Of a stretch of 64,000 nt of DNA, positions 3,573 through 39,213 are shown in pieces. Every line of letters begins with the position of its first letter. Position 1 is the stretch's first letter. The DNA is taken from positions 62,001-126,000 of the forward strand of contig NZ_JADOVG010000009.1 in assembly GCF_015752205.1 (NCBI RefSeq), given 5' to 3'. The translations under genes were made by a program, and so were the position numbers. The DNA is from Polaromonas sp. CG_9.7 (GTDB lineage: Bacteria; Pseudomonadota; Gammaproteobacteria; Burkholderiales; Burkholderiaceae_C). The notes beneath the pieces were generated by a model, which ran no database searches, had not been told where the DNA came from, and was given only the letters and a program-made list of their open reading frames with translations.

Positions 3573-3597
3573 ACGGCAGGCGTAAACGGCCTGCCGT
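3573..3597. terminator. Hairpin between convergent gdhA and DUF1178 genes
   Basis: ACGGCAGG and CCTGCCGT pair perfectly with one further C-G pair inside and a 7-base loop. The hairpin lies 18 bases past the gdhA stop and 11 before the end of the opposing gene. There is no real T-run on either side, so a bidirectional transcript end is likely but not certain. Confidence 0.6.
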
Positions 3598-3608
3598 GTG
3601 ATGGCCTG

Positions 3609-24345: not shown

Positions 24346-24568
24346 GTGTTTTCTCCATTTTTTCAGGGCACGTCAGGCTGTACCGAAAGCCCGGAGCGGC
24401 GGCTGGTTGAACACGATGCCATTCCATAAAACGCCTGCAAGTGGAACTCTGCAGGGCTTGTCTTGTGGAATGACACAGCGCGTGCTCACTGGGCCTTGCT
24501 CCGAAGTCATCAGTCACACCATGGGCACGACTGAAGTTTGAACAGGTTTTTTTGCAGTTTTGAAGTGC

Positions 24569-24600
24569 AAAACGCCTGAGCTAGTGAACTAACTCAGGCG
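24569..24600 (-). terminator. Intrinsic terminator after rpsO
   Basis: On the minus strand CGCCTGAGTTAG pairs with CTAGCTCAGGCG (12 bp, one G-T pair) around the loop TTCA and is followed by TTTT. It starts 20 bases after the rpsO stop. Some transcription must pass it if pnp is read from the rpsO promoter. Confidence 0.85.
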
Positions 24601-24620
24601 CTTTTCGATGGGTTTACCGA

Positions 24621-24887
24621 TTATTTACGCAGGCCAAGCTTGGCAATCAGCGCAATGTAGCGGCCTGCATCCCTGGACTTCAGGTAGTCCAGCAGCTTGC
24701 GGCGGCGGCTCACCATGCGCAGCAGGCCGCGGCGACCGTGGTGATCTTTCGCATGGGTCTTGAAGTGGGGCATCAATTCGTTGATACGGCCAGTCAGCAG
24801 GCCGACCTGGACTTCAGGACTGCCGGTGTCGGTGGCGGAACGGGCATTGTCCTTGACAATCTCGGCCTTGATTGATTTTGCGATCAT
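24621..24887 (-). CDS. rpsO: 30S ribosomal protein S15
   Basis: An 88-residue four-helix protein that binds the central domain of 16S rRNA. The S15 signature is clear: [19 protein letters not shown] and [25 protein letters not shown]. Length is the standard 88-89 residues. It precedes pnp and has its own terminator. Confidence 0.98.
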
Positions 24888-25024
24888 GGGTTTTCCTCTT
24901 GCAACGGTGTTGCGACTGGCGAGCGAAGCAGATTTCCCACAATTGGGAGATGACCGCTTTCGTCGTGATTTCTGGTGGTACGGGCTGCTTTTTCAAGCCG
25001 CCGCATACATCTCAGAGCCTCACA

Positions 25025-26212
25025 TTATAGCGCAAGCCATCGCTGCAACCGCTGCACGCCCTGCTCCAGCCTGACCACATCGTGGCTGGCAAAACACCAG
25101 CGCATCCAACCCTGCGCTTGTGGTGTCGGGTTGACCATGAAGGCATTGCCTGGCGCCAGGCCGAGCCCGGCCTCGACCACCAGGCGCTTGGCGGTTTCCA
25201 GCGAATCACCGAATCGGTCTTGGTCGGACAGCCTGAAAAAAGCGTACATGCCGCCCTTGGGGGTGGCCACTTCCACACCGGGCAGTGCCTGCAGCAGCGG
25301 CACCAGCGTATCGCGGCAGGTTTTCAGGTGCGCCACCAGTTGGGGCGTGACGTCGTTGGTCCCCTGCAGCGCGACCAGCCCGGCACGCTGGATGAACACC
25401 GGCGCACAGGAGGTATTGAACTCCACCAGCTTGCCCATGTGCGGTGTCATTGACGCCGGCATCACCAGCCAGCCCAGGCGCCAGCCGGTCATCAAAAAAC
25501 TCTTGGAAAAACTGTGCGCCACAACCAACCGGTCTTCGGGGTCGGCAATGTCCAGAAAGCTGGGCGCGCAGCCATTGGGCGTGTGATCAAAGTACAGCCG
25601 CTCATAGACCTCGTCGGCCAGAATCCAGGTACCGGTCAATCGGCAATGCGCCAGGATCGAAGCCTGCTCGGCCCGGCTCATCGTCCAGCCGGTGGGATTG
25701 TTCGGCGCATTGACGATCAGCAGTTTGGTGGCCGGCGTGATGGCAGCGAGCAGCTCAGCCATGTCAAGCCGCCATTCGCCTGCCACCGGCTTGAGGCTGA
25801 CGCAGCGCAGCTTGGCGCCCATGATCATCGGCTGCGCCGTCAGGTTGGGCCAGACCGGCGTCACCGCAACCACCTCGTCACCTGCATCGACCAGCGCCTG
25901 CACGGCGAGCATCAGCGCATTGACACCGCCCGAGGTCACGGCAATGCGGTCGACCCGAATCGGTGCGGCGCCTGGGCAACGCAGGCCGGTGGAATACGCG
26001 GCAATGGCGTCGCGCAACTCCGGCAAGCCGAGGTTGTGCGCGTAAAACGTTTCGCCCAACTGAAGCGAAGCAATCGCGGCATCGCGGATAAACGCAGGTG
26101 TGGCCTCGTCGCTTTCGCCAAACCAGAACTTCAGCACGTCGCTGCGGCCCATGCCCGCATTGGCCACCTGACGGATCATGGATTCCTCGAGATTCAGGAC
26201 TGTCTGTCGCAT
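25025..26212 (-). CDS. Class I/II pyridoxal-phosphate aminotransferase
   Basis: The 395-residue protein has the fold-type I aminotransferase layout: NAPNNPTGW (substrate carboxylate and PLP phosphate region), the PLP-ring aspartate in WILADEVYERLYF, the Schiff-base lysine in SFSKSFLMTGWRLGW and the carboxylate-binding arginine near the C-terminus (GWMRWCFA). It is likely to transaminate an aromatic, branched or aspartate-like amino acid with 2-oxoglutarate, but the substrate cannot be fixed from sequence. It stands alone between rpsO and a binding-protein gene on the same strand. Confidence 0.9.
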   Translation of the reverse strand: MRQTVLNLEESMIRQVANAGMGRSDVLKFWFGESDEATPAFIRDAAIASLQLGETFYAHNLGLPELRDAIAAYSTGLRCPGAAPIRVDRIAVTSGGVNALMLAVQALVDAGDEVVAVTPVWPNLTAQPMIMGAKLRCVSLKPVAGEWRLDMAELLAAITPATKLLIVNAPNNPTGWTMSRAEQASILAHCRLTGTWILADEVYERLYFDHTPNGCAPSFLDIADPEDRLVVAHSFSKSFLMTGWRLGWLVMPASMTPHMGKLVEFNTSCAPVFIQRAGLVALQGTNDVTPQLVAHLKTCRDTLVPLLQALPGVEVATPKGGMYAFFRLSDQDRFGDSLETAKRLVVEAGLGLAPGNAFMVNPTPQAQGWMRWCFASHDVVRLEQGVQRLQRWLAL

Positions 26213-26260
26213 GTACGCCCTTTTTGAGATTGAAAAAAATGAAATCGGCAGGATAAAAGC

Positions 26261-27526
26261 TCAGGGGCGGACCATTTGGCAGGTGGTCGGCTGCTCGGCG
26301 CGCTGGGCTGAAATGGCCTTGATGATGCGAAAACCGTAGCCCGATCCCTCAACATCGAATTTAACGCCAGGCGCGCCCTGCTTGCCCATCATGGCCACCG
26401 CCAGTGGCTGCTGAAACTGGTGGTCGCTGGCACGCATGCGGCCCTTGAAACCAGAAAAATTTACTGTGGCATTTTCCATCTGCGCGGCGACGGCACCTGC
26501 TTCGCTGCTGCCGGCTTTTTCCAGGCTCTGGGCCAGCGTTTCCACCATCAGTTGCATGCGCATGTGGACATAGTCGTCCTGCGGCCGGGGAAAGCGCTGG
26601 CGAAACGACTGGTAGAAATTCTCCGAGGCCGCGCCCGGCGTGTTGGGGAACCAGTCGGCCACGGCAATCACCTTGCCGACACCGGCATCGCCGAGCGCAG
26701 CGGGCACGCCCAGCGCATTGCCATAGAAGGTGTAGAACTTGCCGTCGTAGCCGACTTCCCTGGCAGCCTTGATGAGCAGCGTCAGGTCATTGCCCCAGTT
26801 CCCCGTCAGCACCGCCTGCGCGCCGCTGGACTTGATCTTGGCCGCATAGGGAATGAAATCCTTGACGCGGCCGATTGGATGCAACTCGTCGCCGACGATC
26901 TGTACATCGGGCCGCTGCGCCTCAATTTGCTTGCGCCCTTCGCGCAGCACGGCCTGGCCAAAGCTGTAGTCCTGGCCGATCAGATAGACCTTTTTGACCG
27001 CCGCATCGTCCTTGAACACGTCCATCAGCGCAGCCATGCGCATGTCGGCATGGGCGTCGAAGCGGAAATGCCAATAGCTGCACTTCTCGTTTGTCAAAAT
27101 GGGATCAACCGCCGAATAGTTCAGGAACAGCACGCGCTTGCCGGGCTCGCGTTCGTTGTGTTTGTTGATGGCATCGATCAGTGCCGCCGCCACAGCCGAC
27201 GAATTGCCCTGTGCGATCACGGTCACGCCGTCGTCAATCGCCGAACGCAGGGCAGCCAGCGATTCCTCGTTCTGGCCCTTGTTGTCGTAGCGCTCAACCA
27301 CCAGGTTGTGCGCACCGTCGGCCAGTTTGACGCCACCGCGCGCATTGACGCGTTCGGTGGCCCAGACCAGGTTGCGGAACACGGCCTCCCCGGTGTTGGC
27401 AAAGGAACCAGACAGGCTTTCGATCAGCGCGATGCGCACCGGCGGCGGGGAAACGGGCTGCGCCTGGGCCAGCAATGAAAGGCTAAGACCCAAGGCGGCG
27501 GCGGTGCGCTTGAAAATAATTTGCAT
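26261..27526 (-). CDS. Periplasmic branched-chain-amino-acid-type substrate-binding protein
   Basis: A 421-residue type I periplasmic binding protein of the LivJ/HAAT class. A signal peptide spans residues 1-22 (cleavage after LLAQAQ) and the mature protein starts with IALIESLSGSFANTGEAVF, the usual beginning of this fold. No permease or ATPase of the Liv type is nearby, so it is an orphan binding protein that may serve a transporter elsewhere. The ligand may be an amino acid, an aromatic acid or an amide. Confidence 0.87.
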   Translation of the reverse strand: MQIIFKRTAAALGLSLSLLAQAQPVSPPPVRIALIESLSGSFANTGEAVFRNLVWATERVNARGGVKLADGAHNLVVERYDNKGQNEESLAALRSAIDDGVTVIAQGNSSAVAAALIDAINKHNEREPGKRVLFLNYSAVDPILTNEKCSYWHFRFDAHADMRMAALMDVFKDDAAVKKVYLIGQDYSFGQAVLREGRKQIEAQRPDVQIVGDELHPIGRVKDFIPYAAKIKSSGAQAVLTGNWGNDLTLLIKAAREVGYDGKFYTFYGNALGVPAALGDAGVGKVIAVADWFPNTPGAASENFYQSFRQRFPRPQDDYVHMRMQLMVETLAQSLEKAGSSEAGAVAAQMENATVNFSGFKGRMRASDHQFQQPLAVAMMGKQGAPGVKFDVEGSGYGFRIIKAISAQRAEQPTTCQMVRP

Positions 27527-27609
27527 AAGAGAAGAGAGAAATTCCTGTGTTGATGGCGTCAGAATGCAAGCCAGACAGACGTGGTCGAGCCCGCCGAATG
27601 ATCAGGCGT

Positions 27610-28683
27610 TCAGCCCATCGGAACGGGTCGGGGCTGGAATTCCGAAAGATTCCAGCGCGGCTTCACGTCAAAGGTGTAGCTGCCCTGAAGCCCCTGCAAA
27701 TCGACCAGTCCGGCCTGCAGACGCATGCCGGCGGCCATGGCGATCATCGCGCCGTTGTCGGTGCAGAACGCCAGCTCGGGGTAATGCACGCGGATACCGC
27801 GCTGCCGGCAAGCCGCATTGAGCTGGCTGCGCAGCAAGGCGTTGGCGCCAACGCCGCCTGCCACCACCAGCCGCTTAAGCGCGGTTTGCGACAGGGCAGC
27901 CAACGTTTTTTTGACCAGCACGTCGACGATGGCCGCCTGCGTGGACGCGGCCAGGTCGGCCTTTCGGCTTTCCAGGTCGTCGCCCAACTTTTTGGCCTGC
28001 GTCAGCACGGCGGTCTTCAGGCCGGCGAATGAAAAATCCAGGTTGCCGCTGTGCAGCAAGGGCCGGGGCAGCTTGAAGGCCGCACCGTCGCCTTCAAGGG
28101 CGAGTTTTGCCAGGTGCGGCCCGCCCGGATAAGGCATGCCCATCAGCTTGGCCGACTTGTCGAAAGCCTCACCGGCTGCATCGTCAATCGTTTCGCCAAG
28201 CAGCTCGTAGCTGCCGACGCTATCGACCCGCATCAACTGGGTATGCCCTCCCGACACCAGCAGCGCCACGAACGGGAATTCGGGCGGATCGGCACTCAGA
28301 AAAGGCGACAGCAAATGGCCTTCAAGATGGTGCACGCCCATCGCCGGCTTGCCCAGCGCAGCGGCGAGTGAACACGCCACGCCGGCACCGACCAACAGGG
28401 CGCCGGCCAGGCCCGGGCCGCGCGTGTAGGCCACCACATCGACATCGGCCAGCGTGCGCTGTGCGCTTTGCATGACTTCCTGCGTCAGCGGCAGCACGCG
28501 CCGGATGTGGTCGCGGCTGGCCAGCTCGGGCACCACGCCGCCAAAGGGCTGGTGCATGGCAATCTGGCTGAACAAGGCGTGCGACAGCAGGCGCGGCACG
28601 CCTGTGCCGCTGGCATCGACCAGCGCCACGCCGGTTTCATCACAACTCGACTCAATTCCAAGAACCAGCATTTTTTCAAACAT
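27610..28683 (-). CDS. tsaD: tRNA N6-adenosine threonylcarbamoyltransferase
   Basis: The 357-residue protein (Kae1/TsaD family, once annotated as a glycoprotease) transfers threonylcarbamoyl to A37 of ANN-decoding tRNAs, working with TsaB and TsaE. The ATP/metal site motif HHLEGHL lies near residue 116, the opening is [14 protein letters not shown], and [10 protein letters not shown] near residue 283 completes the ASKHA nucleotide fold. The start may be the first ATG or the one four codons later. It follows the SDR gene by 51 bases and is probably on a separate or partly shared transcript. Confidence 0.97.
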
Positions 28684-28734
28684 GGCGGCTAGTTTAGGCG
28701 ACGCGCTTAAGCCCCTAGGCCAGCATTGCCCACC

Positions 28735-29532
28735 CTACTTCATCACCAGCCCGCCATCGACAAACAGCACCTGGCCCGTCATGAAGCGGCTCCAGTCCGA
28801 GGCCAAGAAGAGCACCGGCCCGGCCACGTCGTCGGGCGTGGCCACCCGGCGCAGCGGCGTTTGGCCGACGATCATCGCCTTGACCTCTTCAGGCGTCCCC
28901 TGGCTGGCCGACGTGGGATAGACCAGTCCGGGCGCGACGCAGTTGACGCGTATGCCCAGCGGCCCCAGCTCGACGGCCAGGTTGCGGCTGAAGCCCACCA
29001 GCGCGGACTTGGCCGTGGTGTAGTCATGGTAAGGAATGGACGGCCGCTCGACCAGATCGCTCACCATGTTGACGATGCTGCCCCGGGCGCGCTGCCTGAA
29101 ATGCGGCAGCACGGCCTGGCAAACGTTGTAGGCGGCGTGAACCGCGCCGTCCACCTGCGCCTCGTAGTCGCTCCAGGCCAGTTCCCAAAACATCTTGCGC
29201 TGGTCGGGGTCGAAGCTGAAGGCCCTGAACGCGTTGTTGACCACCACGTCGAGGCGGCCGACTTCGTCCAGTACCTGCGCCACCATGGCCTGAACCGCCG
29301 CTTCGGAACAGACATCGGCCTGAATCGCCAGGCCATCGCCGCCCACGTCCTGGCAGCGCGCCACCACCGCATTGGCGGCCGCTTCGTTACGCAGGTAGTT
29401 GACGACCACCAGCGCGCCTTCGCGGGCGAAGGCCAGCGCAATGGCCGCACCTATGCCCCGGCTGGCGCCGGTGACCAGCACCACCTGACCCTTGAATTTC
29501 AGGGCATTTGCGCCGTGGGCTGCGGTGCTCAT
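28735..29532 (-). CDS. Short-chain dehydrogenase/reductase, FabG-like, in the LuxCE operon
   Basis: A 265-residue classical SDR. NAD(P)-binding TGASRGIG sits at residues 21-28 and the catalytic triad reads Ser158, Tyr171, Lys175 (YTTAK). The usual NNAG motif is NNAF here. It resembles 3-oxoacyl-ACP reductases but has no fatty-acid synthesis neighbours; instead its ATG overlaps the stop of an ABC binding-protein gene by four bases, so it belongs to the LuxE-LuxC-ABC operon. A role in reducing or oxidising an aldehyde, ketone or alcohol made by, or fed to, the LuxC-like enzyme is inference from context. Confidence 0.9.
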   Translation of the reverse strand: MSTAAHGANALKFKGQVVLVTGASRGIGAAIALAFAREGALVVVNYLRNEAAANAVVARCQDVGGDGLAIQADVCSEAAVQAMVAQVLDEVGRLDVVVNNAFRAFSFDPDQRKMFWELAWSDYEAQVDGAVHAAYNVCQAVLPHFRQRARGSIVNMVSDLVERPSIPYHDYTTAKSALVGFSRNLAVELGPLGIRVNCVAPGLVYPTSASQGTPEEVKAMIVGQTPLRRVATPDDVAGPVLFLASDWSRFMTGQVLFVDGGLVMK

Positions 29533-30572
29533 GGCGCGGGCAGCAGGTCCTGGCTAACCACCTCCGAAACCTTGATGGGGCGCTGCACCAGCCCCAGCGC
29601 AAGGTAGGTGTCAGCGGCTTTTTGCAGCACCGCGAGGTCAAAAGCACCCAGCCCGTTTTTGCGCGTCATGGCCGACACACTGGCCAGGTTGCGCAGGCCG
29701 ATGATTTCGCGATTGATGGCAGCGTCCTTGCCGTCAATCGCATATTTAACCGCCAGCGCAGCCGCCTCGTCGGGTTGCCTGATCATCCAGGCGGCGCTGT
29801 CGCGGTAAGCTGCCAGAAACTGGCGCAGCAGCGGCTTTTTTTGCTGATAGGTATCCTCGCGCACGACAAACAGGTCGCTAGAGACGTTCAGGGTGTCCTT
29901 CACCTCCATGACATTGACATCGGCAAGACCTTTTTGCCGGCCAACCAGCAAGCCCGTGTCGGTGGCGGCGGTGGCATCCACCTGGCCCTGCATCAGTGGC
30001 GCGAAATTGAGCAAGCCTGTCACCACAATAGTCACATCCGACTCGCTCAGACCGGCCTGATGCAGCAGCACCAGAAGGTTCTGCCGCGTGCCGCTGGACA
30101 GGCTGTACACGCCAATCTTTTTGCCTTTCAGGTCTGCCGGCTTGTTGATATTGCTGCCCTTGAGCGAGACCACGTTGAAGACGTTTTGCGGATAGATGTC
30201 GTAAATGGCACGCAGCTTTTCCCCTTTTTCCAGCGCCGAGAAAAAGGAACCCGGGTCGGTGAAGGCGATATCGGCTTGTCCGGTCAGCAGGTTGCGCAGC
30301 GCGTCGCCGCCACCCGCGCCCGGTACGTAACGCAACTCAATGCCTTTGGCCTTGAAAAAACCCTTGTCTTCATCGACAAGCAGGTTGGTCACTTCGGTGA
30401 TCGGCTTGCTCCAGCCGGCAACAACGAATTTCTCCAGGCTGGCGGGCGGCGCAGCTGATGCGGCCAAGGCGGTGCCGGCCAGGCTGGGGTTAAGCAGTGC
30501 GACAGCGGTGGCAGCTGCAGCCAGCCGGGTAAATGAGCGACGGGCAAGCGAAGAATGCAAGATTTTTTTCAT
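29529..30572 (-). CDS. NMT1/THI5-type ABC substrate-binding protein
   Basis: This 347-residue protein belongs to the NMT1/SsuA/TauA-like type II periplasmic binding proteins, whose members bind sulfonates, taurine, nitrate, pyrimidines or aromatic acids. It has an N-terminal export signal with a twin-arginine-like stretch (ARRSFTRLAAA) and cleavage near residue 38. The mature part shows FVVAGWSKPITEV and the domain hinge GQADIAFTDPGSF. The ATG overlaps the permease stop by four bases and its stop overlaps the SDR start. The ligand is unknown. Confidence 0.88.
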   Translation of the reverse strand: MKKILHSSLARRSFTRLAAAATAVALLNPSLAGTALAASAAPPASLEKFVVAGWSKPITEVTNLLVDEDKGFFKAKGIELRYVPGAGGGDALRNLLTGQADIAFTDPGSFFSALEKGEKLRAIYDIYPQNVFNVVSLKGSNINKPADLKGKKIGVYSLSSGTRQNLLVLLHQAGLSESDVTIVVTGLLNFAPLMQGQVDATAATDTGLLVGRQKGLADVNVMEVKDTLNVSSDLFVVREDTYQQKKPLLRQFLAAYRDSAAWMIRQPDEAAALAVKYAIDGKDAAINREIIGLRNLASVSAMTRKNGLGAFDLAVLQKAADTYLALGLVQRPIKVSEVVSQDLLPAP

Positions 30573-31348
30573 AATGGAGTTTGTTTGGGAAGCAGGGTGA
30601 TACGTGACGCCAGCAGGCGTTTTTCAAGCAGGATAGACAACTGGTACAGCAGCAGGCCGAGCAAGGTGATGAGCACCAGCACGGCAAACATCAGCGGCGT
30701 GTCCATCATGCCCTGCGCGGCAATGATGAGCGCGCCCAGGCCGGAACTGCCGCCAATGAACTCGCCGACGACAGCGCCGACCAGCGCCAGCACCACGGCC
30801 ACGCGAAAGCCGCCCAGGATGCCGGGCAGCGCCGAGGGCAGCTTGAGCCGCAGCAGCGTCTGCCAGCGCGTGGCGCCCAGCATGCGAAACAGCTCCAGCC
30901 GCTGCCGGTCGACCTGACCCAATCCGGTCATGGTGTTTTCCATCAGCGGGAAAAAGCACACAAGCGCCGTGATCACCACCGTCGAGGTCATGCCAAAGCC
31001 GAACCAGACAATGAACAGCGGCGCCAGCGCCAGCTTGGGAACGACCTGGCTGGTGATGACATAAGGCATCAACAGGCGCCGCAGGCTGGGCGATTCACCC
31101 AGCGCCACGCCGCCGACCAACCCCAGCACGCCGCCGGCCACCAGTCCCAGCACCAGCTCCAGCACCGTCTGCACGAGGTGCGGCCCCAGGTAGCCCGACA
31201 GCAAGCCTTTGTACAGCGCGTCAAACACCAGAGACGGCGGAGGCAGCACCAGCGCCGACAGCTTGAGCTCGCGCGCCGCCATCTCCCAGACCAGCAGCCC
31301 GGCAGCAAACAGCAGCCAGGCAAAAAAGTGGGTTCGGCGAGCGCTCAT
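30569..31348 (-). CDS. ABC transporter permease, SsuC/TauC type
   Basis: A 259-residue inner-membrane permease with six predicted transmembrane segments and the BPD_transp_1 fold; the EAA-type loop region reads LFRMLGATRWQTLLRLKLPS near residue 160. It should form the channel of an importer with the ATPase and binding protein encoded beside it. ATG 31348 (MSARRTHFF) overlaps the ATPase stop (ATGA); the longer frame to 31393 is not needed. Confidence 0.9.
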   Translation of the reverse strand: MSARRTHFFAWLLFAAGLLVWEMAARELKLSALVLPPPSLVFDALYKGLLSGYLGPHLVQTVLELVLGLVAGGVLGLVGGVALGESPSLRRLLMPYVITSQVVPKLALAPLFIVWFGFGMTSTVVITALVCFFPLMENTMTGLGQVDRQRLELFRMLGATRWQTLLRLKLPSALPGILGGFRVAVVLALVGAVVGEFIGGSSGLGALIIAAQGMMDTPLMFAVLVLITLLGLLLYQLSILLEKRLLASRITLLPKQTPL

Positions 31349-32097
31349 TGCGCGCCTCCACTGCCATCCATGCCCGCCCTGAGCTGCGCGCACAGCGCGT
31401 TGAAGGCCGGGCTGTAGCGCACGTCGCGTCCGCGCGGCCGGGGCAGCGCCACCGGCAGGTCCTGGCAGATGCGCCCGCCCGCCATCACGGCCACCCGGTC
31501 GGCCAGGTAGACCGCTTCGCTGATGTCATGCGTGACGAAAAACACCGTGGTCTGGCGCAGGCGGCACAGCGCCAGCAGATCGTCCTGCAGGTCTTCGCGG
31601 GTGATGGCGTCGAGCGAAGCAAACGGCTCGTCCAGCAGCAGCAAGGCGGGCTCGACGACCAGCGCACGGGCAATCGCCACCCGGCTTTGCTGGCCGCCCG
31701 ACAGATGGCGCGGGTAGTGATTTTCCAGGGCCGACAGGCCCATCAGCGACAACAGTTCGCGCGCCTTGGCCACTTCCTGCAGCGCAGGCGGATGGCGCAG
31801 CGACAGCGGCAGCAGCACGTTGTCAAGCACGGTGCGCCACTCCAGCAATGTCGGCGACTGAAAGACAAAGCCCAGTTCGGGGCCCGGCCGGGTGTGCGGC
31901 ACGCCTTGCAGGCGTATCACCCCGGCGCTGGGCTGCAGCAAGCCGGCAGCCAGTTTGAGCAGCGTGGTCTTGCCGCAGCCGCTGCGGCCCACCAGGCAAT
32001 GGAACTCGCCCTGCGCGATGCGCCAGTCCACCCGGTCAACCACGGCCGGCCAGCCCGGATAGGTGTAGCTGACCTGCGCCATGTCCAGGAAACTCAT
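31345..32097 (-). CDS. ABC transporter ATP-binding protein, SsuB/TauB type
   Basis: A 250-residue ATPase with Walker A GRSGCGKTT near residue 38, Q-loop FQSPTLLEW, signature LSGGQQSRVAIARA near 130 and Walker B LLLLDEPFASLD near 152, then the H-loop FVTHDISEA. The sequence class matches importers for nitrate, sulfonate or taurine. It lies 30 bases downstream of the LuxC-like gene and overlaps the permease gene, so the importer is tied to the acyl-reductase enzymes. Confidence 0.93.
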   Translation of the reverse strand: MSFLDMAQVSYTYPGWPAVVDRVDWRIAQGEFHCLVGRSGCGKTTLLKLAAGLLQPSAGVIRLQGVPHTRPGPELGFVFQSPTLLEWRTVLDNVLLPLSLRHPPALQEVAKARELLSLMGLSALENHYPRHLSGGQQSRVAIARALVVEPALLLLDEPFASLDAITREDLQDDLLALCRLRQTTVFFVTHDISEAVYLADRVAVMAGGRICQDLPVALPRPRGRDVRYSPAFNALCAQLRAGMDGSGGAQ

Positions 32098-32127
32098 GGC
32101 TGGCGCCCGTTTTTACAGCCCAGGGCG

Positions 32128-33588
32128 CTAATCGACATAAGGGGCAAAGCCTTCAGCGGCGAGTTCGGCCGATTGTTCAATCTCGACCATCTGGACCAGG
32201 TCCAGCAAATTGAAGCGTCCGTCATGGTGCCATCCTGCCTCGGGCGAGGTCATGCTGCCCAGCGCGCAGATACGGGTCACACCGGCCTGCCCCAGTAACT
32301 CGGCCAGCGCAAACAACTCCGTGGGCGCGGCCGCCAGGCCCACGGTCTGCAAATAAACGCGGCTTCGGGCAATTTCAGGAAAGACCTGCGCCAGGTCGTC
32401 CACCGCCACCACCAGCACGGTGCGGTTCAGCGCGCTGGGCGCCAACCCTTGCAATTGATCGGCATAGGCCACGCGCCAAGGCGTGTCCGCATCGCCCATC
32501 AGGCTGGCACCGGGCTGCGTCATCAGCCGCAGCTCCTGCGCCTGGTTCCAGCGCGCCACCTCGCTGGCCTCGTCCAGCGCCAGCGTGCGTCGCGGAAACC
32601 GCGGCTCCAGGCTGGCAATGGCTTGCGCCAGGTAGTGCGCGAAGGCCTGCGGCGCCACCTTGCCGCCGCGCTCGACGTAGAACAACTGTGGTGAATAGCA
32701 GCCTTGCTGGTCGTAGCGCACCACGTCGCAAGCTGCCTGCTGCGCCGTGGCCGGGGCCTTGCGCGCATCCAGCGCAGCACGGGCCACCATGCCAAAACTG
32801 AGCTTGTGGCCATACCCCAGAAAGCGCGTGGTGACGGGCACCTGCGCGCGCAATGCCTGCAGCGCGCCATTGCCGCCATAGGCGAGCACCACGTCGGCCT
32901 GCGCAAACAACGCCTGCTCCAGCGGCGCGTCACCGCCCTTCCACCACCCTACTGCCAGGCAGTCGGCCAGCGCCGGGTCCAGTTCCACCAGCAGGTGGGC
33001 GAACCAGCCGGCAAACAGCGGCTCGGCGCTGGGCAATTTGCCAATGCTGCCCGACTTGACCAGCAGGCTTGAAATCAGACTCCACAGCGGCAAACCCGGT
33101 ACATTGCCGGCCCAGACGTGCACCAGCAGTTCCGGCCCCACGGCCTTGGCAAAGCCGCCCTTGGGGCGCGGCTGGAATTCATCGAGCAGCTTGGGGTTGG
33201 CAAAATCCTCGGCCACGAAGCGTTGCAGTTGCGGCTGGCGAAAAGTTTTCAGGTAACTGGTCAGCCCCAGCCGCACCGTCTCGGGGTCGTAGCCGGTGAC
33301 CAGCGGGAGCAGCCGGTCGGCCTGCTGGCGATACGGGTCGCTGCGGTCCAGCAGCCGCGCAATGGCGCTGTCGACCAGCGCAATGATTTGCGACACCGTG
33401 CGCGTCTTCAGGTAGGCCCGGCTGCCCTGCTTGACGCGCTCGGCCAGGGCCGCCCATTGCACCTGGCTCAATACCGGCACGGCCACTTCGAGCCGTTCGC
33501 TGCCGCTGCCGAAATGCAGCGTCTGCCACGCCAGTTCATCAGCCTTGAAGCCCGGCAGGTAGCCGGCCACGGCATGCCACACCGTCAT
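32128..33588 (-). CDS. LuxC-like acyl-CoA/acyl-protein reductase
   Basis: A 486-residue member of the LuxC family, which reduces an acyl group carried on LuxE (or acyl-CoA) to an aldehyde with NADPH. The aldehyde-dehydrogenase-like fold is recognisable from HVWAGNVPGLPLWS near residue 157 and the active-site segment DQQGCYSPQ with the expected catalytic cysteine at residue 297. Length is close to the 475-490 of luminous-bacteria LuxC. The start overlaps the LuxE-like stop by four bases, so the two are translationally coupled. No luxA, luxB or luxD is present in the window, so light production is not indicated. The natural acyl substrate is unknown. Confidence 0.88.
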   Translation of the reverse strand: MTVWHAVAGYLPGFKADELAWQTLHFGSGSERLEVAVPVLSQVQWAALAERVKQGSRAYLKTRTVSQIIALVDSAIARLLDRSDPYRQQADRLLPLVTGYDPETVRLGLTSYLKTFRQPQLQRFVAEDFANPKLLDEFQPRPKGGFAKAVGPELLVHVWAGNVPGLPLWSLISSLLVKSGSIGKLPSAEPLFAGWFAHLLVELDPALADCLAVGWWKGGDAPLEQALFAQADVVLAYGGNGALQALRAQVPVTTRFLGYGHKLSFGMVARAALDARKAPATAQQAACDVVRYDQQGCYSPQLFYVERGGKVAPQAFAHYLAQAIASLEPRFPRRTLALDEASEVARWNQAQELRLMTQPGASLMGDADTPWRVAYADQLQGLAPSALNRTVLVVAVDDLAQVFPEIARSRVYLQTVGLAAAPTELFALAELLGQAGVTRICALGSMTSPEAGWHHDGRFNLLDLVQMVEIEQSAELAAEGFAPYVD

Positions 33589-34703
33589 GCGCGGGCGGCC
33601 TGCAAAAATTCTTCCACCGCCAGCGAGCAGCCCTTGGCCTGTGTGCCTTCGGCGCGGCCAACTAGCAAAAATCCGTCCGTGACCGCCACGCCGACGTCTT
33701 CCGTGAGGATGGTCGTCACCGAGTTGAAATTGGCCAGGTCGCAGTGCGCCAGCACGCCCTGCTCGCCATGCGCCACTTCCGCGCCGCTCAACGGGTTCAC
33801 CAGGCGCGAGCGGATCCAGTGCGGGCCCGACTTGACCGCCGGCAGCTGCGCACTGCCGTTGTCGTAGAACTGCGTGCTCAGCTCGGTCATGCCGTACATG
33901 TTGATGCAGTCCTCGGGCGGCACGCCCAGCAGCGCCGTCAGCTGCGCATAGAACTGCGCCATGGGAATCTCACGCGACTGGCCCTTGAAGCCGCCGGTGT
34001 CCAGCACCCGGCTGCCTGCCGGCAGGGCAAATTTTCGTCCCTGCTGCGCCAGTGCATCCATCAGGTGCACCAGGCTGTAGGACGCGCCCAGCAGCGCATA
34101 GGGCTGCGCCATGGCCTCGGCCTGCGCCAGCGCCGCGCACACGCCCGCCGTGTCCAGCCCGGCGGCGTCGATGAAGTAGCGACTGTCGTCCGCGCCAAAG
34201 GTCTGCAGCGCCAGCGCCAGGTAGTGCGCCAGCGATGAGTTCGGCATCACCTCTTCGGTGGGAAATAAGATGCCCATGGCCATGCTGCTCTGGCCGCGCA
34301 TGAAGCGCCGGGCGAAGTTGGCGCGCATTGAGGCGTCGTACACCGCCAGGGTCGGATGGTGGTGCTTGCCCTTGACGTCGCCCTGCGTGGTGCCGCTGGT
34401 CATGAACACACGGTCAGTGCTGGAGGGTGGCTGGCAGGTCAGGCACAGGGCCTTGAAGGCACTGATGGGAACGGCCGGAATGTCTTGCCAGGTCTTGACC
34501 GTTCGCGGCGTCTTGCCGCGTTGCCGGCAAAAGCGCTGGAACGGTGTGTTGTGGGCAAACTGGTAGGCAAACAACGCCAAAGCCTGGGCGTTGAAGGCGT
34601 CGTCAGTGACGCCATCCTGCGCTATGAAAGCCAGCACGCCGTCAACGATCGGGTCGGCAAGCGCTTGCGGGCGGGCGGGTGTTGCGTTGTCAAGGGCATC
34701 CAT
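33585..34703 (-). CDS. LuxE-like acyl-protein synthetase
   Basis: A 372-residue adenylating enzyme of the LuxE/PaaK-like superfamily. LuxE activates a carboxylic acid with ATP and loads it on its own cysteine before handing it to LuxC. The ATP-site motif is FMTSGTTQGDVKGK near residue 113, a second core motif NMYGMTELSTQFY lies near 265, and a cysteine in the C-terminal segment KGCSLAVEEF (residue 359) is at the position expected for the acyl acceptor. I chose ATG 34703 (MDALDNATP) because AAGGA lies nine bases upstream; ATG 34712 directly abuts that site. It is the first gene of the six-gene operon. Confidence 0.87.
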   Translation of the reverse strand: MDALDNATPARPQALADPIVDGVLAFIAQDGVTDDAFNAQALALFAYQFAHNTPFQRFCRQRGKTPRTVKTWQDIPAVPISAFKALCLTCQPPSSTDRVFMTSGTTQGDVKGKHHHPTLAVYDASMRANFARRFMRGQSSMAMGILFPTEEVMPNSSLAHYLALALQTFGADDSRYFIDAAGLDTAGVCAALAQAEAMAQPYALLGASYSLVHLMDALAQQGRKFALPAGSRVLDTGGFKGQSREIPMAQFYAQLTALLGVPPEDCINMYGMTELSTQFYDNGSAQLPAVKSGPHWIRSRLVNPLSGAEVAHGEQGVLAHCDLANFNSVTTILTEDVGVAVTDGFLLVGRAEGTQAKGCSLAVEEFLQAARA

Positions 34704-35028
34704 GGTCGTCATTCCTTCAAGAGTCTGCGGTGGCAGGGTGCTCCGAAAGTCGTGATGGCGGGAGTGAACCCTGTCCTGACAGCTCTTCTTACGTCGGCAT
34801 GACCCGAAATCAAGTTCGCGGGTTTGGTGAAACCATCTCAGCCGCCCTGCCATCACTGACCGGACTGCACCCCGAAGCGGAAATGATTCTAAGCGCAAGG
34901 ACCTGCGCTGTGGTGGCACCTGCGGTGGCCTGCGCAGGGCAGCGTGCCGCAATGCCCCGACCGTGCACGAAAACCGGATGCCTTCCCGGCAAAACCCACC
35001 ATCGGCATAAATTTTGCTTGTAGACACC
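34704..35028. other. 325-bp divergent intergenic region between the LuxE-like gene and nasT
   Basis: The region must hold the promoters of both divergent units. On the minus strand TAGAAT at 34891-34886 could be a -10 for the LuxE operon but no good -35 faces it. On the plus strand a sigma-54-like motif ends just before nasT (separate entry). I see no repeat, RNA gene or further open frame with credible coding character. Confidence 0.6.
35003..35019 (+). promoter_or_regulatory. Weak sigma-54-like motif before nasT
   Basis: CGGCAT-N5-TTGCTT matches the GG/GC core and spacing of a -24/-12 promoter but is poorer than the nrtA and nirB copies. Transcription would begin at about 35029, the first base of the nasT ATG, giving a leaderless message. 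This makes it doubtful. Confidence 0.3.
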
Positions 35029-35661
35029 ATGACATTGCCCCATTCCCTGCGCCTGGTGGTCATTGCACCGGACCTGATGGTTGCCGATACCGGTGACGAG
35101 GCTGCCGTGGCGCTGGCCGAGCGCTCGCGCCAATTGCGCATCGGCCTGCTCGAAGGCGGATTCAATCTGGTTGCCACGCTGCCAGCCGACACCTTTTTGC
35201 GCGAACGGCTGGCGCAGTTGCAGCCCGACATGATCATCGTCGACGCCGAAAGCGATGCCCGCGACTCGCTCGAACACGTCGTCATGGCCACGCGCGACGA
35301 GCGCCGGCCCATCGTGCTGTTCACCAATGACGACGACACCCGCCACGTGAAGGACGCGGTAGCCGCTGGGGTTTGCGCCTATATTGTTGCCGGCCTGGCG
35401 ACGTCGCGCATCCGCCCGATCCTGGACGTGGCCATGGCGCGCTTTGAGCACGAACAAGGGCTGCGCCGCGAACTGGCCGATGTGCGCACCGAACTGAAAG
35501 ACCGCAAGATCATTGACCGGGCCAAGGGCCTGCTGATGCAGCGCCAGGGCCTGTCTGAACAGGCCGCGTACGAAAAGCTGCGCAAGGCGGCCATGGACAA
35601 GGGCCTGCGGCTGGGCGACGTGGCGCAGCGCATGCTGGATGTGGCTGACCTGCTGGGCTAG
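35029..35661 (+). CDS. nasT: ANTAR-domain antiterminator, NasT type
   Basis: The 210-residue protein has an N-terminal receiver-like domain (residues 1-125, with the acceptor-position aspartate in MIIVDAES) and a C-terminal ANTAR RNA-binding domain (residues about 150-205, LKDRKIIDRAKGLLMQRQG and later AMDKGLRLGDVAQRML). NasT-type proteins bind paired hairpins in nitrate-assimilation leaders and prevent termination; they are usually held inactive by the nitrate sensor NasS. No nasS is visible in this window. It is encoded directly upstream of nrtA, whose leader has a matching hairpin. ATG 35029 is used; a TTG at 35014 is possible. Confidence 0.93.
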   Translation: MTLPHSLRLVVIAPDLMVADTGDEAAVALAERSRQLRIGLLEGGFNLVATLPADTFLRERLAQLQPDMIIVDAESDARDSLEHVVMATRDERRPIVLFTNDDDTRHVKDAVAAGVCAYIVAGLATSRIRPILDVAMARFEHEQGLRRELADVRTELKDRKIIDRAKGLLMQRQGLSEQAAYEKLRKAAMDKGLRLGDVAQRMLDVADLLG

Positions 35662-35685
35662 TCAGCCCAGGCCGAAATGGTGCAG

Positions 35686-35702
35686 TGCACAACCGCAGTG
35701 CG
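35686..35702 (+). promoter_or_regulatory. Candidate NtrC enhancer site upstream of nrtA
   Basis: TGCAC-N7-GTGCG matches the dyad TGCAC-N7-GTGCA of NtrC sites with one mismatch. It lies about 135 bases upstream of the sigma-54 -24 element, a normal distance for an enhancer. The inner bases do not match the full consensus, so it is a candidate only. Confidence 0.45.
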
Positions 35703-35743
35703 TCTCCAGGAAAACGGGGCCTTGAATCGCAAAAAATCAAAAT

Positions 35744-35774
35744 GCTATTTATTTAATAGCTGCTTGCGCAAGCA
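35744..35774. repeat. GCTATT-N5-AATAGC mini-palindrome plus adjacent TGCTTGCGCAAGCA
   Basis: GCTATT and AATAGC form a 6-bp hairpin with loop TATTT (35744-35760), followed at once by the perfect 14-base palindrome TGCTTGCGCAAGCA. Related elements occur at four or more other intergenic sites in the window. Confidence 0.8.
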
Positions 35775-35836
35775 GGACAAGCGCCACAGCCCTATTTATC
35801 TTAAATTTTAAGCGTTGATCAAGCCTTCTGTTCAGT

Positions 35837-35853
35837 TGGCACAGCTTTTGCAA
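35837..35853 (+). promoter_or_regulatory. Sigma-54 (-24/-12) promoter of the nrtA operon
   Basis: TGGCAC-AGCTT-TTGCAA is a full match to the sigma-54 core TGGCAC-N5-TTGCW. Transcription should begin near 35863, just ahead of the leader hairpin. Sigma-54 with NtrC is the known nitrogen-limitation control of nitrate assimilation genes. Confidence 0.88.
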
Positions 35854-35866
35854 TAACTACGACACC

Positions 35867-35900
35867 GGACCTTCGGCTTCAATGGCGAAGCAGAAAGTCC
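35867..35900 (+). ncRNA. ANTAR-target hairpin in the nrtA leader
   Basis: GCTTC (35876-35880) and GAAGC (35887-35891) pair around the six-base loop AATGGC, with A at loop position 1 and G at position 4 as in ANTAR-protein targets. An outer stem GGAC/GTCC (35867-35870 and 35897-35900) extends it across an internal loop. Only one convincing hairpin is present; a partner is either degenerate or absent. Confidence 0.7.
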
Positions 35901-35906
35901 CAGAAC

Positions 35907-35972
35907 AAAGGCGTTCGTCCCCTGCCCTCACACCCCTTGTGTGCCGGCTCCGGTCGAACGCCTTTTTTGTTT
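35907..35972 (+). terminator. Intrinsic terminator in the nrtA leader
   Basis: AAAGGCGTTCG (35907-35917) pairs with CGAACGCCTTT (35955-35965) and is followed by a T-run. The long loop contains a second hairpin CACAC/GTGTG. It ends 28 bases before the nrtA start and follows the ANTAR hairpin by seven bases, so it is the expected site of NasT-controlled antitermination. Confidence 0.85.
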
Positions 35973-36000
35973 TATTTTTTCATTTCCAGGAGTTGCTGAC

Positions 36001-37245
36001 ATGACAGACCTGCTCAAACCTTCCCTCTCACGCCGCAGCGTGCTGCAGGCCGCCGCCGTGGGTGCCGTGGGCATCAGCCCGGCATTGCGCGCCGCCGTCT
36101 ATGCGCAGGGCTCGGACGCGCCAGAGAAAAAGGAAGTCAGGATCGGCTTCATTCCACTGACCGATTGCGCCTCGGTGGTGATGGCGTCGGTGCTCGGCAT
36201 TGACAAGAAATACGGCGTGACCATCATCCCGAGCAAGGAAGCCAGCTGGGCCGGCGTGCGCGACAAGCTGGTCAACGGCGAGCTCGACTTTGCCCATGTC
36301 CTGTATGGCCTGATCTACGGCGTGCATTTAGGCACCGCCGGGCCCAAAAAGGACATGGCCGTCCTGATGACGATCAACAACAACGGCCAGGCGATCACGC
36401 TGAGCAAGAAGCTCGCCGACAAGGGCGCCGTCGATGGCCCCGGCCTGGCAAAACTCATGGCCAGCGAAAAGCGCGAATACACCTTCGCCCAGACCTTCCC
36501 GACCGGCACCCACGCCATGTGGCTTTACTACTGGCTTGCGGCCAACGGCATCAACCCGATGTCGGACGCCAAGGTGATCACCGTGCCGCCGCCGCAGATG
36601 GTCGCCAACATGCGCATCGGCAACATGGATGGTTTTTGCGTCGGCGAACCCTGGGGACAGCGCGCGATCATGGACGGCATTGGCGTCACCGCCGTGACGA
36701 CGCAGGACATCTGGAAAGACCATCCGGAAAAGGTGTTGGGCACCACCGCCGAATTCACCCAGAAATACCCGAACACCGCCCGCGCCGTGACCGCCGCCAT
36801 CCTGGAGGCGGGCCAATGGATTGACGCCAGCCTGGCGAACAAAAGCAGGATGGCCGAAACCATCTCCGGCAAGGCCTATGTCAACACCAGCGTCGACGCC
36901 ATCAACCAGCGCATCCTGGGCCGCTACCAGAACGGCATGGGCAAAACGTGGGACGACCCGAACCACATGAAGTTCTTCAACGACGGCGCGGTGAACTTTC
37001 CCTACCTGTCCGACGGCATGTGGTTTTTGACGCAGCACAAGCGCTGGGGCTTGATGAAAGAGCACCCGGACTACCTGGCCGTGGCCAAGCAGATCAACCG
37101 GATCGACATCTACAAGCAGGCTGCCAGCGCCGCCAAGGTGAGCGTTCCGAAGGACGTGATGCGCACCAGCAAATTGATCGACGGCACGGTCTGGGACGGC
37201 AAGGACCCGAAAAAGTACGCCGACAGCTTCAAGGTTCACGCCTGA
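36001..37245 (+). CDS. nrtA: Nitrate ABC transporter substrate-binding protein (CmpA/NrtA family)
   Basis: A 414-residue binding protein with a twin-arginine signal (LSRRSVLQAAAVGAVG) and cleavage near residue 38. It matches the NrtA/CmpA group by the opening RIGFIPLTDCASVVMASVLG and the conserved FAQTFPTGTHAMWLYYWLAA and GNMDGFCVGEPWGQRA stretches. It should capture nitrate (possibly nitrite or bicarbonate) in the periplasm for NrtB/NrtD. The ATG at 36001 has AGGAG nine bases upstream. The signal argues against it being a cytoplasmic NasS sensor, which is otherwise a similar protein. Confidence 0.93.
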   Translation: MTDLLKPSLSRRSVLQAAAVGAVGISPALRAAVYAQGSDAPEKKEVRIGFIPLTDCASVVMASVLGIDKKYGVTIIPSKEASWAGVRDKLVNGELDFAHVLYGLIYGVHLGTAGPKKDMAVLMTINNNGQAITLSKKLADKGAVDGPGLAKLMASEKREYTFAQTFPTGTHAMWLYYWLAANGINPMSDAKVITVPPPQMVANMRIGNMDGFCVGEPWGQRAIMDGIGVTAVTTQDIWKDHPEKVLGTTAEFTQKYPNTARAVTAAILEAGQWIDASLANKSRMAETISGKAYVNTSVDAINQRILGRYQNGMGKTWDDPNHMKFFNDGAVNFPYLSDGMWFLTQHKRWGLMKEHPDYLAVAKQINRIDIYKQAASAAKVSVPKDVMRTSKLIDGTVWDGKDPKKYADSFKVHA

Positions 37246-37292
37246 AACCGCCCTTTGATTTTTCGTTGAATTACTTTTGAAGAGGTGACGCC

Positions 37293-38243
37293 ATGGTCAG
37301 TGCCGTATTTCACAGCCCGCTTGAAAGCGCCCCGCCGACTACCGCCAGCGTGGAGCGAAGCGCTACGCATTCGATAGCTGCCAATGTAGATGAGGCGAGC
37401 GCAAAGACCGTAAAAGACCATAAAAAGACGGGTGCGGCCTTGTCCGCGACACCCCGGCGGGATTTTTCTGCGTTGTGGTTGCACGTCCTGCCGCCACTGC
37501 TCGGACTTGGCCTGCTGGCGCTTGTCTGGGAATTGGTATCCATGGCCACCAAGGCCAGCATTCCCTCGCCCAAGGACACCTTCCTGCAAGCCGTCGTACT
37601 GTTCAGCGACCCGTTCTACCGCAACGGCCCGAACGACCAGGGCGTCGGCTGGAACGTGCTGGCCTCGCTCAAGCGCGTGGCGCTCGGCTTTGGCCTGGCC
37701 GCCATCGTCGGCATTCCGGCCGGTTTCCTGATTGGCCGCTTCACGTTTTTGAGCCGCATGTTCAACCCGCTCATCAGCCTGATGCGGCCGGTGTCGCCGC
37801 TGGCCTGGCTGCCGATCGGCCTGCTGGTGTTCAAGGGCGCCGACCCGGCCGCCATCTGGACGATTTTCATCTGCTCGATCTGGCCCATGGTCATCAACAC
37901 CGCCGTTGGCGTGCAGCGCGTGCCGCAGGACTACATGAATGTCGCCCGTGTGCTGAACCTGTCGGAATGGAAGATCGTCACCAAAATTTTGTTCCCCTCG
38001 GTGCTGCCCTACATGCTGACCGGCGTGCGGCTGGCTGTCGGCACGGCGTGGCTGGTGATCGTCGCGGCCGAGATGCTGACTGGTGGCGTCGGCATCGGCT
38101 TCTGGGTCTGGGACGAGTGGAACAACCTCAACGTCATGAACATCATCATCGCGATTTTCGTCATCGGCATCGTCGGGCTGGCGCTGGAGTTTGCGCTGAT
38201 CAAGCTGGCCACGGCGTTCACGTTTGAAGAAGTCAAGAACTGA
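37293..38243 (+). CDS. nrtB: Nitrate ABC transporter permease
   Basis: A 316-residue inner-membrane permease of the NrtB type, six predicted transmembrane segments between residues 65 and 305 and an EAA loop around NVARVLNLSEWKIVTKILFP. The N-terminal 60 residues are an unusual polar extension; its DNA around 37371-37385 contains TTCGATAGCTGCC, similar to the local mini-palindromes, so it may derive from such an element read in frame. The gene follows nrtA by 47 bases and has GAGGTG upstream. Confidence 0.94.
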   Translation: MVSAVFHSPLESAPPTTASVERSATHSIAANVDEASAKTVKDHKKTGAALSATPRRDFSALWLHVLPPLLGLGLLALVWELVSMATKASIPSPKDTFLQAVVLFSDPFYRNGPNDQGVGWNVLASLKRVALGFGLAAIVGIPAGFLIGRFTFLSRMFNPLISLMRPVSPLAWLPIGLLVFKGADPAAIWTIFICSIWPMVINTAVGVQRVPQDYMNVARVLNLSEWKIVTKILFPSVLPYMLTGVRLAVGTAWLVIVAAEMLTGGVGIGFWVWDEWNNLNVMNIIIAIFVIGIVGLALEFALIKLATAFTFEEVKN

Positions 38244-38272
38244 GCTGCCGACCCAACCCAAGGAACATGACC

Positions 38273-39088
38273 ATGAACACCCCCGTCAATCCCCAGTACA
38301 TCGACATCCAGGGCGTCGAGCAGGTTTTCAAGACCAAGAAAGGCCCGTTCTGCGCGCTGCAGAACGTCAACCTCAAGGTCGCCAAGGGCGAATTCGTCGC
38401 GCTGATCGGTCATTCGGGCTGCGGCAAATCGACGCTGCTCAACCTGATCGCCGGCCTGACGATGCCCACGCAGGGCGTGCTGCTGTGCGCCAACCGCGAG
38501 ATCGCCGGCCCCGGCCCGGAGCGCGCGGTGGTGTTTCAGAACCACTCGCTGCTGCCGTGGCTGACCTGCTTCGAGAACGTCTACCTGGCCGTCGAGCGCG
38601 TGTTTTCCGCCACGCAAAGCAAGGCCCAGCTGAAGGCGCGCACCGATGCGGTGCTGACGATGGTCGGCTTGACGGCCGCAGCGCAAAAGCGCCCCGGCGA
38701 AATCTCGGGTGGCATGAAGCAGCGCGTCGGCATTGCCCGTGCGCTGTCGATGGAGCCCAAGGTGCTGCTGCTTGACGAGCCCTTCGGCGCGCTCGATGCG
38801 CTGACCCGCGCCAAGCTGCAGGACGAGCTGCTGCAGATCGTCGCCAACACGCAGAGCACGGTCGTCATGGTGACGCACGATGTCGATGAGGCGGTGCTGC
38901 TGAGCGACAAAATCGTGATGATGACCAACGGCCCGTCGGCGACGATTGGCGAAGTGCTCAGCGTTGACCTGCCGCGCCCACGCAACCGCGTCGAACTGGC
39001 CGAAAGCACGCAGTACCTGCACTACCGCAAGGCGGTGATCGACTTTTTGTACACGCGCCAGGCGCATGTCGAAAAACTGACGGCCTGA
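38273..39088 (+). CDS. nrtD: Nitrate ABC transporter ATP-binding protein
   Basis: A 271-residue ATPase with Walker A GHSGCGKST near residue 46, signature ISGGMKQRVGIARA near 146 and Walker B VLLLDEPFGALD near 170. It energises nitrate import with NrtA and NrtB. The second of two close ATGs (38273) is chosen because AAGGA lies eight bases before it and only two before the first (38267). There is no NrtC-type fusion with a second binding domain. Confidence 0.94.
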   Translation: MNTPVNPQYIDIQGVEQVFKTKKGPFCALQNVNLKVAKGEFVALIGHSGCGKSTLLNLIAGLTMPTQGVLLCANREIAGPGPERAVVFQNHSLLPWLTCFENVYLAVERVFSATQSKAQLKARTDAVLTMVGLTAAAQKRPGEISGGMKQRVGIARALSMEPKVLLLDEPFGALDALTRAKLQDELLQIVANTQSTVVMVTHDVDEAVLLSDKIVMMTNGPSATIGEVLSVDLPRPRNRVELAESTQYLHYRKAVIDFLYTRQAHVEKLTA

Positions 39089-39111
39089 GTGGCCGCTCGT
39101 TTCGCGTCAAA

Positions 39112-39174
39112 CACCCGCAACGCGGGTGCCGGAAAACTCGATGCAACAGCCCACGGGCGGGCACCGGTTTTTTT
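39112..39174 (+). terminator. Two competing hairpins between nrtD and the NarK-type gene
   Basis: CACCCGC (39112-39118) and GCGGGTG (39122-39128) form a perfect 7-bp hairpin. GGTGCC (39125-39130), which overlaps its right arm, can instead pair with GGCACC (39160-39165), two bases before a run of seven T. The structures exclude each other, as in an attenuator. A simpler reading is an ordinary terminator after nrtD. Confidence 0.6.
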
Positions 39175-39213
39175 CCTGTTTGGCAATTCGCACTTTTTCA
39201 CGGGCATTCTCCA

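Follow-up and report, generated by a model that had tools for sequence, protein, structure and literature searches.

A LuxE/LuxC operon behind a TPP riboswitch in Polaromonas: probable salvage of the vitamin B1 pyrimidine

We analyzed a stretch of 64,000 nucleotides from Polaromonas sp. CG_9.7 (hereafter the window; positions 62,001 to 126,000 of contig NZ_JADOVG010000009.1, assembly GCF_015752205.1) and focused on a six-gene operon that encodes LuxE-like and LuxC-like proteins together with an ATP-binding cassette (ABC) importer and a short-chain dehydrogenase/reductase (SDR). The operon lies behind a thiamin pyrophosphate (TPP) riboswitch, and we propose that it probably functions in salvage of vitamin B1, by uptake and two-step reduction of a carboxylate form of the thiamin pyrimidine to hydroxymethylpyrimidine (HMP), the substrate of ThiD. 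It is placed in vitamin B1 salvage because of this riboswitch, the thi genes that adjoin it in relatives and its binding protein of the thiamin/pyrimidine type. An involvement in thiamin metabolism is close to certain.

Conservation of the operon and of its riboswitch

The initial annotation had described six minus-strand genes at 28735-34703 of the window, in the order LuxE-like, LuxC-like, ATPase, permease, binding protein and SDR, and open reading frames (ORFs) and family scans bear this out (Table 1). It had also joined the LuxE/LuxC pair to the importer in one pathway, a reading that depends on the two being neighbors in other genomes. We scanned the contigs of one genome per species for relatives of the LuxC-like protein, found 268 and analyzed the best 80 (loci are cited by L numbers, genomes by G numbers), which come from Burkholderiales, Azospirillum, Bosea, other alphaproteobacteria, Bacillus and kin, Desulfotomaculum and others. 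All six genes occur in the same order in 64 of these 80, so that luxE and luxC do adjoin the ABC genes elsewhere, and the arrangement is more than chance. Eight loci (L044, L046, L056, L065, L069, L070, L084, and L086) have luxE, luxC and the SDR gene without the ABC genes, and the remaining eight are cut by a contig end. Therefore, luxE, luxC and the SDR gene form the core of the system, to which the importer is an optional addition. The LuxC family itself is patchy, being found in 27/87 genomes of the window's genus, 8/399 genomes of its order (13/399 if more distant LuxC matches are counted), 6/398 genomes of its phylum and 27 of 72,556 plasmid records (E 1e-60).

The TPP element, which the initial annotation had missed, is on the operon's strand, 65 nt ahead of luxE, and the operon genes, including that for the ThiY-type binding protein, all stand behind this same leader. 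Scanned against Rfam at the gathering threshold, the whole window yields only a tRNA, and the element was found by a focused scan of the leader. In a search of the whole genome (E 6.1e-8) it is one of three TPP elements; the second precedes thiC, followed by genes read as thiO, thiG, and thiE, and the third precedes a CytX-like gene.

At the gathering threshold, an element is present at the same place in 10 of 18 relatives (4/9 and 6/9). We also built our own covariance model from 11 sequences of 10 relatives, leaving the window out, and this model scores the window at 38.9 bits (E 3.1e-8). Among the 80 relatives it finds a TPP element before luxE or thiD-luxE in 74, of which 64 had not been used for the model and 10 had. 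With the luxE start taken by extrapolation from the alignment, the element lies 13-106 bases ahead of it in 60 of the 74 loci and 107-237 bases ahead in 6; where thiD intervenes (8 loci), the distance is 853-946 bases. Four of the six loci in which the model finds no element (L053, L066, L078, and L082) are on contigs that begin inside the operon; the other two are L051 and L052. In the order-level sample the element is found in all six relatives with enough leader (L004-L008 and L010), a further one (L009) ending inside thiD so that its leader is not visible, and it is found in both further relatives of the phylum-level sample. None of six control loci with other or weakly LuxC-like genes (L002 and L011-L015) has it.

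The helices of the aptamer covary. Across 45 sequences (44 distinct, window included), 94.4% of cells are paired, and 9 pairs are changed on both sides compared to 4.1 in shuffles, with 0/500 shuffles as high, in an alignment that was fitted to the model. One relative (L072) has a second TPP riboswitch at the locus edge (17327-17434), close in sequence to the first.

Thiamin gene partners and plasmid-borne variants

Genes of thiamin synthesis adjoin the operon in several relatives. For example, thiD, the gene for HMP kinase, lies between the riboswitch and luxE in 8 of the 80 loci (L023, L029, L032, L033, L040, L042, L057, and L091). In L023 the order on one strand is TPP-thiD-luxE-luxC-ABC-SDR-thiO-thiS-thiG-thiE (thiO scores below its equivalog cut-off and the thiE domain below the NCBIfam cut-offs). 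L058 reads TPP-luxE-luxC-ABC-SDR-thiM-thiD-thiE, with thiM, thiD, and thiE all above cut-offs. In these loci the module adjoins the genes for HMP kinase and for the thiazole, and neither locus has thiC beside it. In addition, L032 and L042 show thiO, L042 part of thiG, L057 and L091 a thiE-like region, and L082 has thiD downstream on the other strand.

Plasmids carry further variants. A nucleobase permease of the NCS2 family replaces the ABC genes on plasmids of Lactiplantibacillus plantarum and Levilactobacillus brevis (TPP, NCS2 permease, LuxE, LuxC, SDR) and on a Niallia megaplasmid (L107), where tandem TPP elements (3540-3836) stand ahead of thiW and the permease, followed by LuxE, LuxC, and SDR. 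The three-gene core is found behind a TPP element on two Pantoea plasmids and one Pseudomonas silvicola plasmid, and all six genes on a Priestia plasmid, again with a TPP element. Overall, the element was detected in 7/7 plasmid loci searched (L102-L108), and it exceeds the RF00059 gathering score in 4/4 plasmid loci. An additional plasmid locus from Azospirillum lipoferum (L111), outside this search, has all six genes.

The two lactobacillus plasmids are small (L102 and L103; 10.3 and 21.2 kb). Each carries the whole unit of permease, LuxE, LuxC, and SDR under TPP control, and the protein accessions are the same in both genera, suggesting that a vitamin trait was transferred recently. Records L104, L105, and L108 are annotated as long-chain fatty acid--CoA ligase, acyl-CoA reductase (bioluminescence) and SDR or 3-oxoacyl-acyl carrier protein reductase, names that probably mislead pathway reconstruction.

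The binding protein and the conserved cysteines

The structure of the binding protein was predicted from 30 sequences (pLDDT 89). Its best solved matches were the thiamin-bound 4nmy of Clostridium difficile (best by E-value) and then 3ix1, the Bacillus halodurans ThiY that binds formylaminopyrimidine (FAMP; E 1.3e-21, TM 0.88 by target length). SsuA, an unassigned Bordetella protein, and Thi5 came next. A profile search placed Thi5, ThiY, and 4nmy among its best six. Both the NMT1/THI5 domain and the predicted fold are those expected of a ThiY-type importer. A thiamin pyrimidine would fit this model as ligand, alongside other possible ligands.

The LuxE-like and LuxC-like proteins are members of PF04443 and PF05893, respectively, as judged from profile scores above cut-off and from the two cysteines that the initial annotation had described as kept, Cys359 of LuxE (the expected acyl acceptor) and Cys297 of LuxC (the expected catalytic residue). 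Alignment to the bioluminescence complex 7xc6 confirmed both residues, and they are invariant among relatives (70 LuxE and 80 LuxC sequences aligned, the window's own included). Both proteins score far below the bioluminescence equivalogs NF052244 (LuxE, 52.7 vs. 550 bits) and NF052251 (LuxC, 90.6 vs. 750 bits). What computation shows is the set of six genes and the conservation of its order, the riboswitch, the neighboring thi genes of relatives, and the retention of both cysteines.

Table 1. Features of the operon and its leader (window coordinates).
Feature	Position	Strand	Evidence
TPP riboswitch aptamer	34769..34884	-	RF00059 (Rfam) match, 47.2 bits (E 4.4e-8, 701 bases scanned)
LuxE-like acyl-activating / acyl-protein synthetase, 372 aa	33585..34703	-	PF04443 3.6e-15, 56.2 bits (cut-off 24.9); aligns with LuxE of 7xc6
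LuxE-like Cys359 codon, expected acyl acceptor	33627..33629	-	aligned with KGCSL of 7xc6_E; invariant in 70/70 aligned
LuxC-like acyl reductase, 486 aa	32128..33588	-	PF05893 1.8e-91, 307 bits (cut-off 21); 7xc6_A 8.8e-21
LuxC-like Cys297 codon, expected catalytic cysteine	32698..32700	-	aligned with YDQQAC of 7xc6_A; invariant in 80/80 aligned
ABC importer ATPase, nitrate/taurine/sulfonate-like group, 250 aa	31345..32097	-	PF00005 1.8e-31; best NCBIfam matches all below cut-offs
ABC importer permease	30569..31348	-	PF00528 3.5e-32; ATG start, GTG at 31393 as alternative
Periplasmic binding protein, NMT1/THI5 (ThiY-like) type, 347 aa	29529..30572	-	PF09084 3.2e-50; predicted fold nearest 4nmy, 3ix1
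SDR oxidoreductase, FabG-like, proposed aldehyde-to-alcohol reductase, 265 aa	28735..29532	-	PF13561 2.2e-60; NF006393 298.5 bits (cut-off 292)

The tight packing of the genes was likewise as first described, with 4-base overlaps at luxE/luxC, ATPase/permease, permease/binding protein, and binding protein/SDR and a 30-base gap between luxC and the ATPase gene. The absence of luxA, luxB, and luxD, also part of that description, agrees with an inspection by eye of the ORFs of 24000-40000, the rest of the genome not having been searched for them. A nitrate-uptake cluster lies upstream and divergent at 35014-40428, with nitrate ABC permease and ATPase above cut-offs and a NarK-type transporter below; the Lux/ABC operon is separate from it.

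ThiC and ThiG in carrier genomes

To see which half of thiamin the operon might supply, we searched the genomes behind 50 of the 80 loci for thiamin genes. Of these carriers, 13 lack ThiC. Six have no true ThiG (over 300 bits; weaker matches, seen in every genome, were left uncounted), and these six are without ThiC too. Seven carriers without ThiC therefore keep ThiG, and 0/50 keep ThiC without ThiG. In the Pseudomonadota sample of 398 genomes, ThiC is found in 319 and ThiG in 323 (E 1e-40), and therefore both are lost about equally often in general. The pattern in the carriers is support, not proof, because the seven genomes represent about four lineages (in our judgment) and only three of the 13 ThiC-less genomes, those of Ramlibacter montanisoli, Bacillus sp. 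MRMR6, and Oceanobacillus salinisoli, come from isolates, the other 10 being metagenome bins. ThiD was matched in 49/50 carriers at the default cut-off and in 48/50 at 277 bits or more. TenA was found in 13 of 19 chosen genomes, several of the matches being weak. In Ramlibacter montanisoli neither ThiC nor TenA was detected, while ThiG was.

All eight three-gene carriers among the 50 lack ThiC, compared to 5 of the 42 others (p 2.4e-6, uncorrected for kinship).

Two genomes have unusual ThiC genes. That of L051 (G415:C9:13605-14800), one of the two carriers without a riboswitch, has a ThiC match broken into several pieces, one of which contains a stop, reflecting either a decayed gene or assembly errors; we counted it as ThiC-positive. 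The Desulfosporosinus genome of L088 (G445) has three ThiC-like genes, two of them adjacent.

Several genes recur beside the three-gene loci, namely those for a dienelactone hydrolase, an NDP-forming CoA ligase domain, a 4HBT thioesterase, and MTHFR, as well as a gene for a long protein that, unscanned, we take to be methionine synthase. Present in five or six loci only, they were treated as background. One such locus, L084, from a record titled Flavobacteriales, has the same neighbors as the alphaproteobacterial L065, L069, L070, and L086 and is perhaps mislabeled or part of a mixed bin.

Proposed pathway and alternative readings

LuxE proteins activate carboxylates and LuxC proteins reduce acyl groups to aldehydes. 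We suggest that, when TPP is scarce, the leader riboswitch would permit expression, and the ThiY-like binding protein, permease, and ATPase would import an oxidized thiamin pyrimidine bearing a carboxylate. The LuxE-like enzyme would activate the carboxylate with ATP and hand the acyl group via Cys359 to Cys297 of the LuxC-like enzyme, which would form the 5-aldehyde with NAD(P)H as reductant. Reduction of the aldehyde by the SDR would then give the 5-hydroxymethyl compound HMP, for phosphorylation by ThiD and joining to the thiazole by ThiE. The chemistry of each step is inferred from the protein families, and its direction, the cofactors, and repression by TPP are putative as well. We assign the SDR to the core of the pathway because it accompanies luxE-luxC even in loci that have no ABC genes. 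The initial annotation had proposed import of a carboxylate, its reduction by LuxE and LuxC, and further conversion by the SDR. This general scheme fits the 64 relatives with ABC genes and the place of the SDR in the core, while the pathway, which had been left unnamed, is the part added here.

The acid is most likely 4-amino-2-methylpyrimidine-5-carboxylate, because the alcohol used by ThiD is HMP. This acid has been reported as a metabolite of thiamin in the urine of rats (Neal and Pearson, 1964, as cited in PMC7780320).

Among the alternatives, the operon could instead serve the thiazole half of thiamin, reducing 4-methylthiazole-5-acetate to hydroxyethylthiazole (HET) for phosphorylation by ThiM. 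This would likewise be a two-step conversion of an acid to an alcohol, and thiM follows the SDR gene in L058 while thiW, presumably a thiazole transporter gene, is part of the Niallia operon. However, thiD is the commoner partner, the lactobacillus plasmids encode a nucleobase permease, and the thiO-thiS-thiG genes that adjoin the module in L023 would duplicate its product. Moreover, the seven ThiC-less carriers that keep ThiG have no counterpart with ThiC alone. We favor the pyrimidine half for these reasons (thiD, thiG beside the module, nucleobase permeases, and the ThiC-less carriers with ThiG) and regard the thiazole reading as unlikely.

A role in restoring whole thiamin, by reduction of thiamin acetic acid, seems to us somewhat less probable again. 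The chemistry would be identical and the best fold match of the binding protein by E-value is thiamin-bound, but thiD, thiG, and thiE beside the module, like the ThiG of 7 of the 13 ThiC-less carriers, indicate that thiamin is put together from its two halves, and whole thiamin would be an unexpected cargo for a nucleobase permease.

It is similarly improbable, in our estimate, that the three enzymes end a ThiC-independent route to the pyrimidine in which the 5-carboxylate is made or exchanged as a normal currency. A ninth three-gene carrier, the gammaproteobacterial G796, has the three genes and ThiC; it breaks the rule that three-gene carriers lack ThiC and led us to lower this estimate slightly. 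If such a route were real, luxE-luxC-SDR would be the main source of HMP, perhaps de novo, in ThiC-less three-gene carriers without a linked importer (8 of the 9 examined).

Least probable is the reduction of a carboxylate unrelated to the thiamin skeleton with TPP control serving another purpose: LuxE and LuxC act on fatty acids in bioluminescence and public annotation names a fatty acid--CoA ligase and an acyl-CoA reductase, but the riboswitch, the neighboring thiD, thiM, thiE, thiO, thiS, thiG, or thiW of several relatives, the scores far below the LuxE/LuxC equivalog cut-offs, and the ThiY-like binding protein all speak against it. Our first idea of a sulfonate/taurine or fatty-acid substrate, taken from the ABC group and the Lux names, was dropped after the TPP riboswitch and the thi neighbors were found.

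Several observations weigh against pyrimidine salvage, or at least against parts of its evidence. The window's TPP element is below the Rfam gathering score (47.2 vs. 54.3 bits) and so falls short of RF00059 membership at that score, and its leader strand, folded by itself, has a minimum-energy structure other than the aptamer (z +1.35), an uninformative result. In L051 and L052 no riboswitch is detectable before the operon, even with filters off. Folds of the sulfonate-binding SsuA are nearly as close to the binding protein as the nearest ones. ThiC is kept by 37 of the 50 carriers, and its loss is not significantly higher in carriers than in the phylum sample (13/50 vs. 79/398, p 0.35), so that the higher loss we had looked for failed to appear. 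Some of the losses may be gaps, given the number of metagenome bins among the 13 genomes, and all eight ThiC-less three-gene carriers are bins, most of them from related alphaproteobacteria; the exception of G796 counts here as well. Some carriers also have TenA, and the window genome a CytX-like gene, for the pyrimidine. Finally, the substrate is deduced from context.

Relation to known systems

The bioluminescence LuxC-LuxE fatty acid reductase (7xc6) shares with the operon the two families, both cysteines, and the logic of activation followed by reduction. Unlike it, the operon encodes proteins far below the LuxE/LuxC equivalog cut-offs and has a TPP riboswitch, its own importer, an SDR, and, in relatives, thiamin partners. 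Carboxylic acid reductases convert an acid to an aldehyde at the expense of ATP as one large protein with a phosphopantetheine carrier, whereas the operon uses two separate Lux-type proteins. The ThiC (HMP-P synthase) branch would deliver the same half of thiamin, and L023 has the module next to thiD and thiO-thiS-thiG-thiE; ThiC, however, synthesizes its product from aminoimidazole ribotide (AIR), while the operon would be a salvage system in need of an outside acid. The HMP transporters CytX and ThiV, under TPP riboswitches, resemble it in pyrimidine uptake under TPP control but have no enzyme module.

A further parallel is salvage by ThiXYZ/ThiY with YlmB and TenA, in which FAMP and aminomethylpyrimidine (AmMP) are turned into HMP. 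It likewise combines TPP-controlled uptake, through a ThiY-type binding protein, with remodeling of a damaged thiamin pyrimidine. That route uses hydrolysis according to the available text of PMC5635689, in which no word beginning with "carboxy" occurs, whereas the operon would employ carboxylate reduction by LuxE, LuxC, and SDR. Known salvage handles HMP, AmMP, FAMP, HET, and carboxy-HET (cHET), and these are the compounds named in the available portions of two marine papers (PMC10470507 and PMC10881298), which mention no pyrimidine acid. In the open-licence PMC literature we found no work joining LuxE/LuxC with thiamin salvage or a TPP riboswitch, although a description elsewhere is possible. 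On this comparison of the literature, the operon would represent a TPP-controlled vitamin salvage system with a new chemical step.

Implications

The proposal gives LuxC/LuxE proteins a defined, testable role other than in making light, and under it a pyrimidine carboxylate is predicted to be a B1 vitamer that has been overlooked. If it is correct, the usual fatty-acid annotation of these proteins would be wrong, in Pseudomonadota and Bacillota at least, and some bacteria that are scored as pyrimidine auxotrophs because they lack ThiC and TenA would have an unrecognized source of the pyrimidine.

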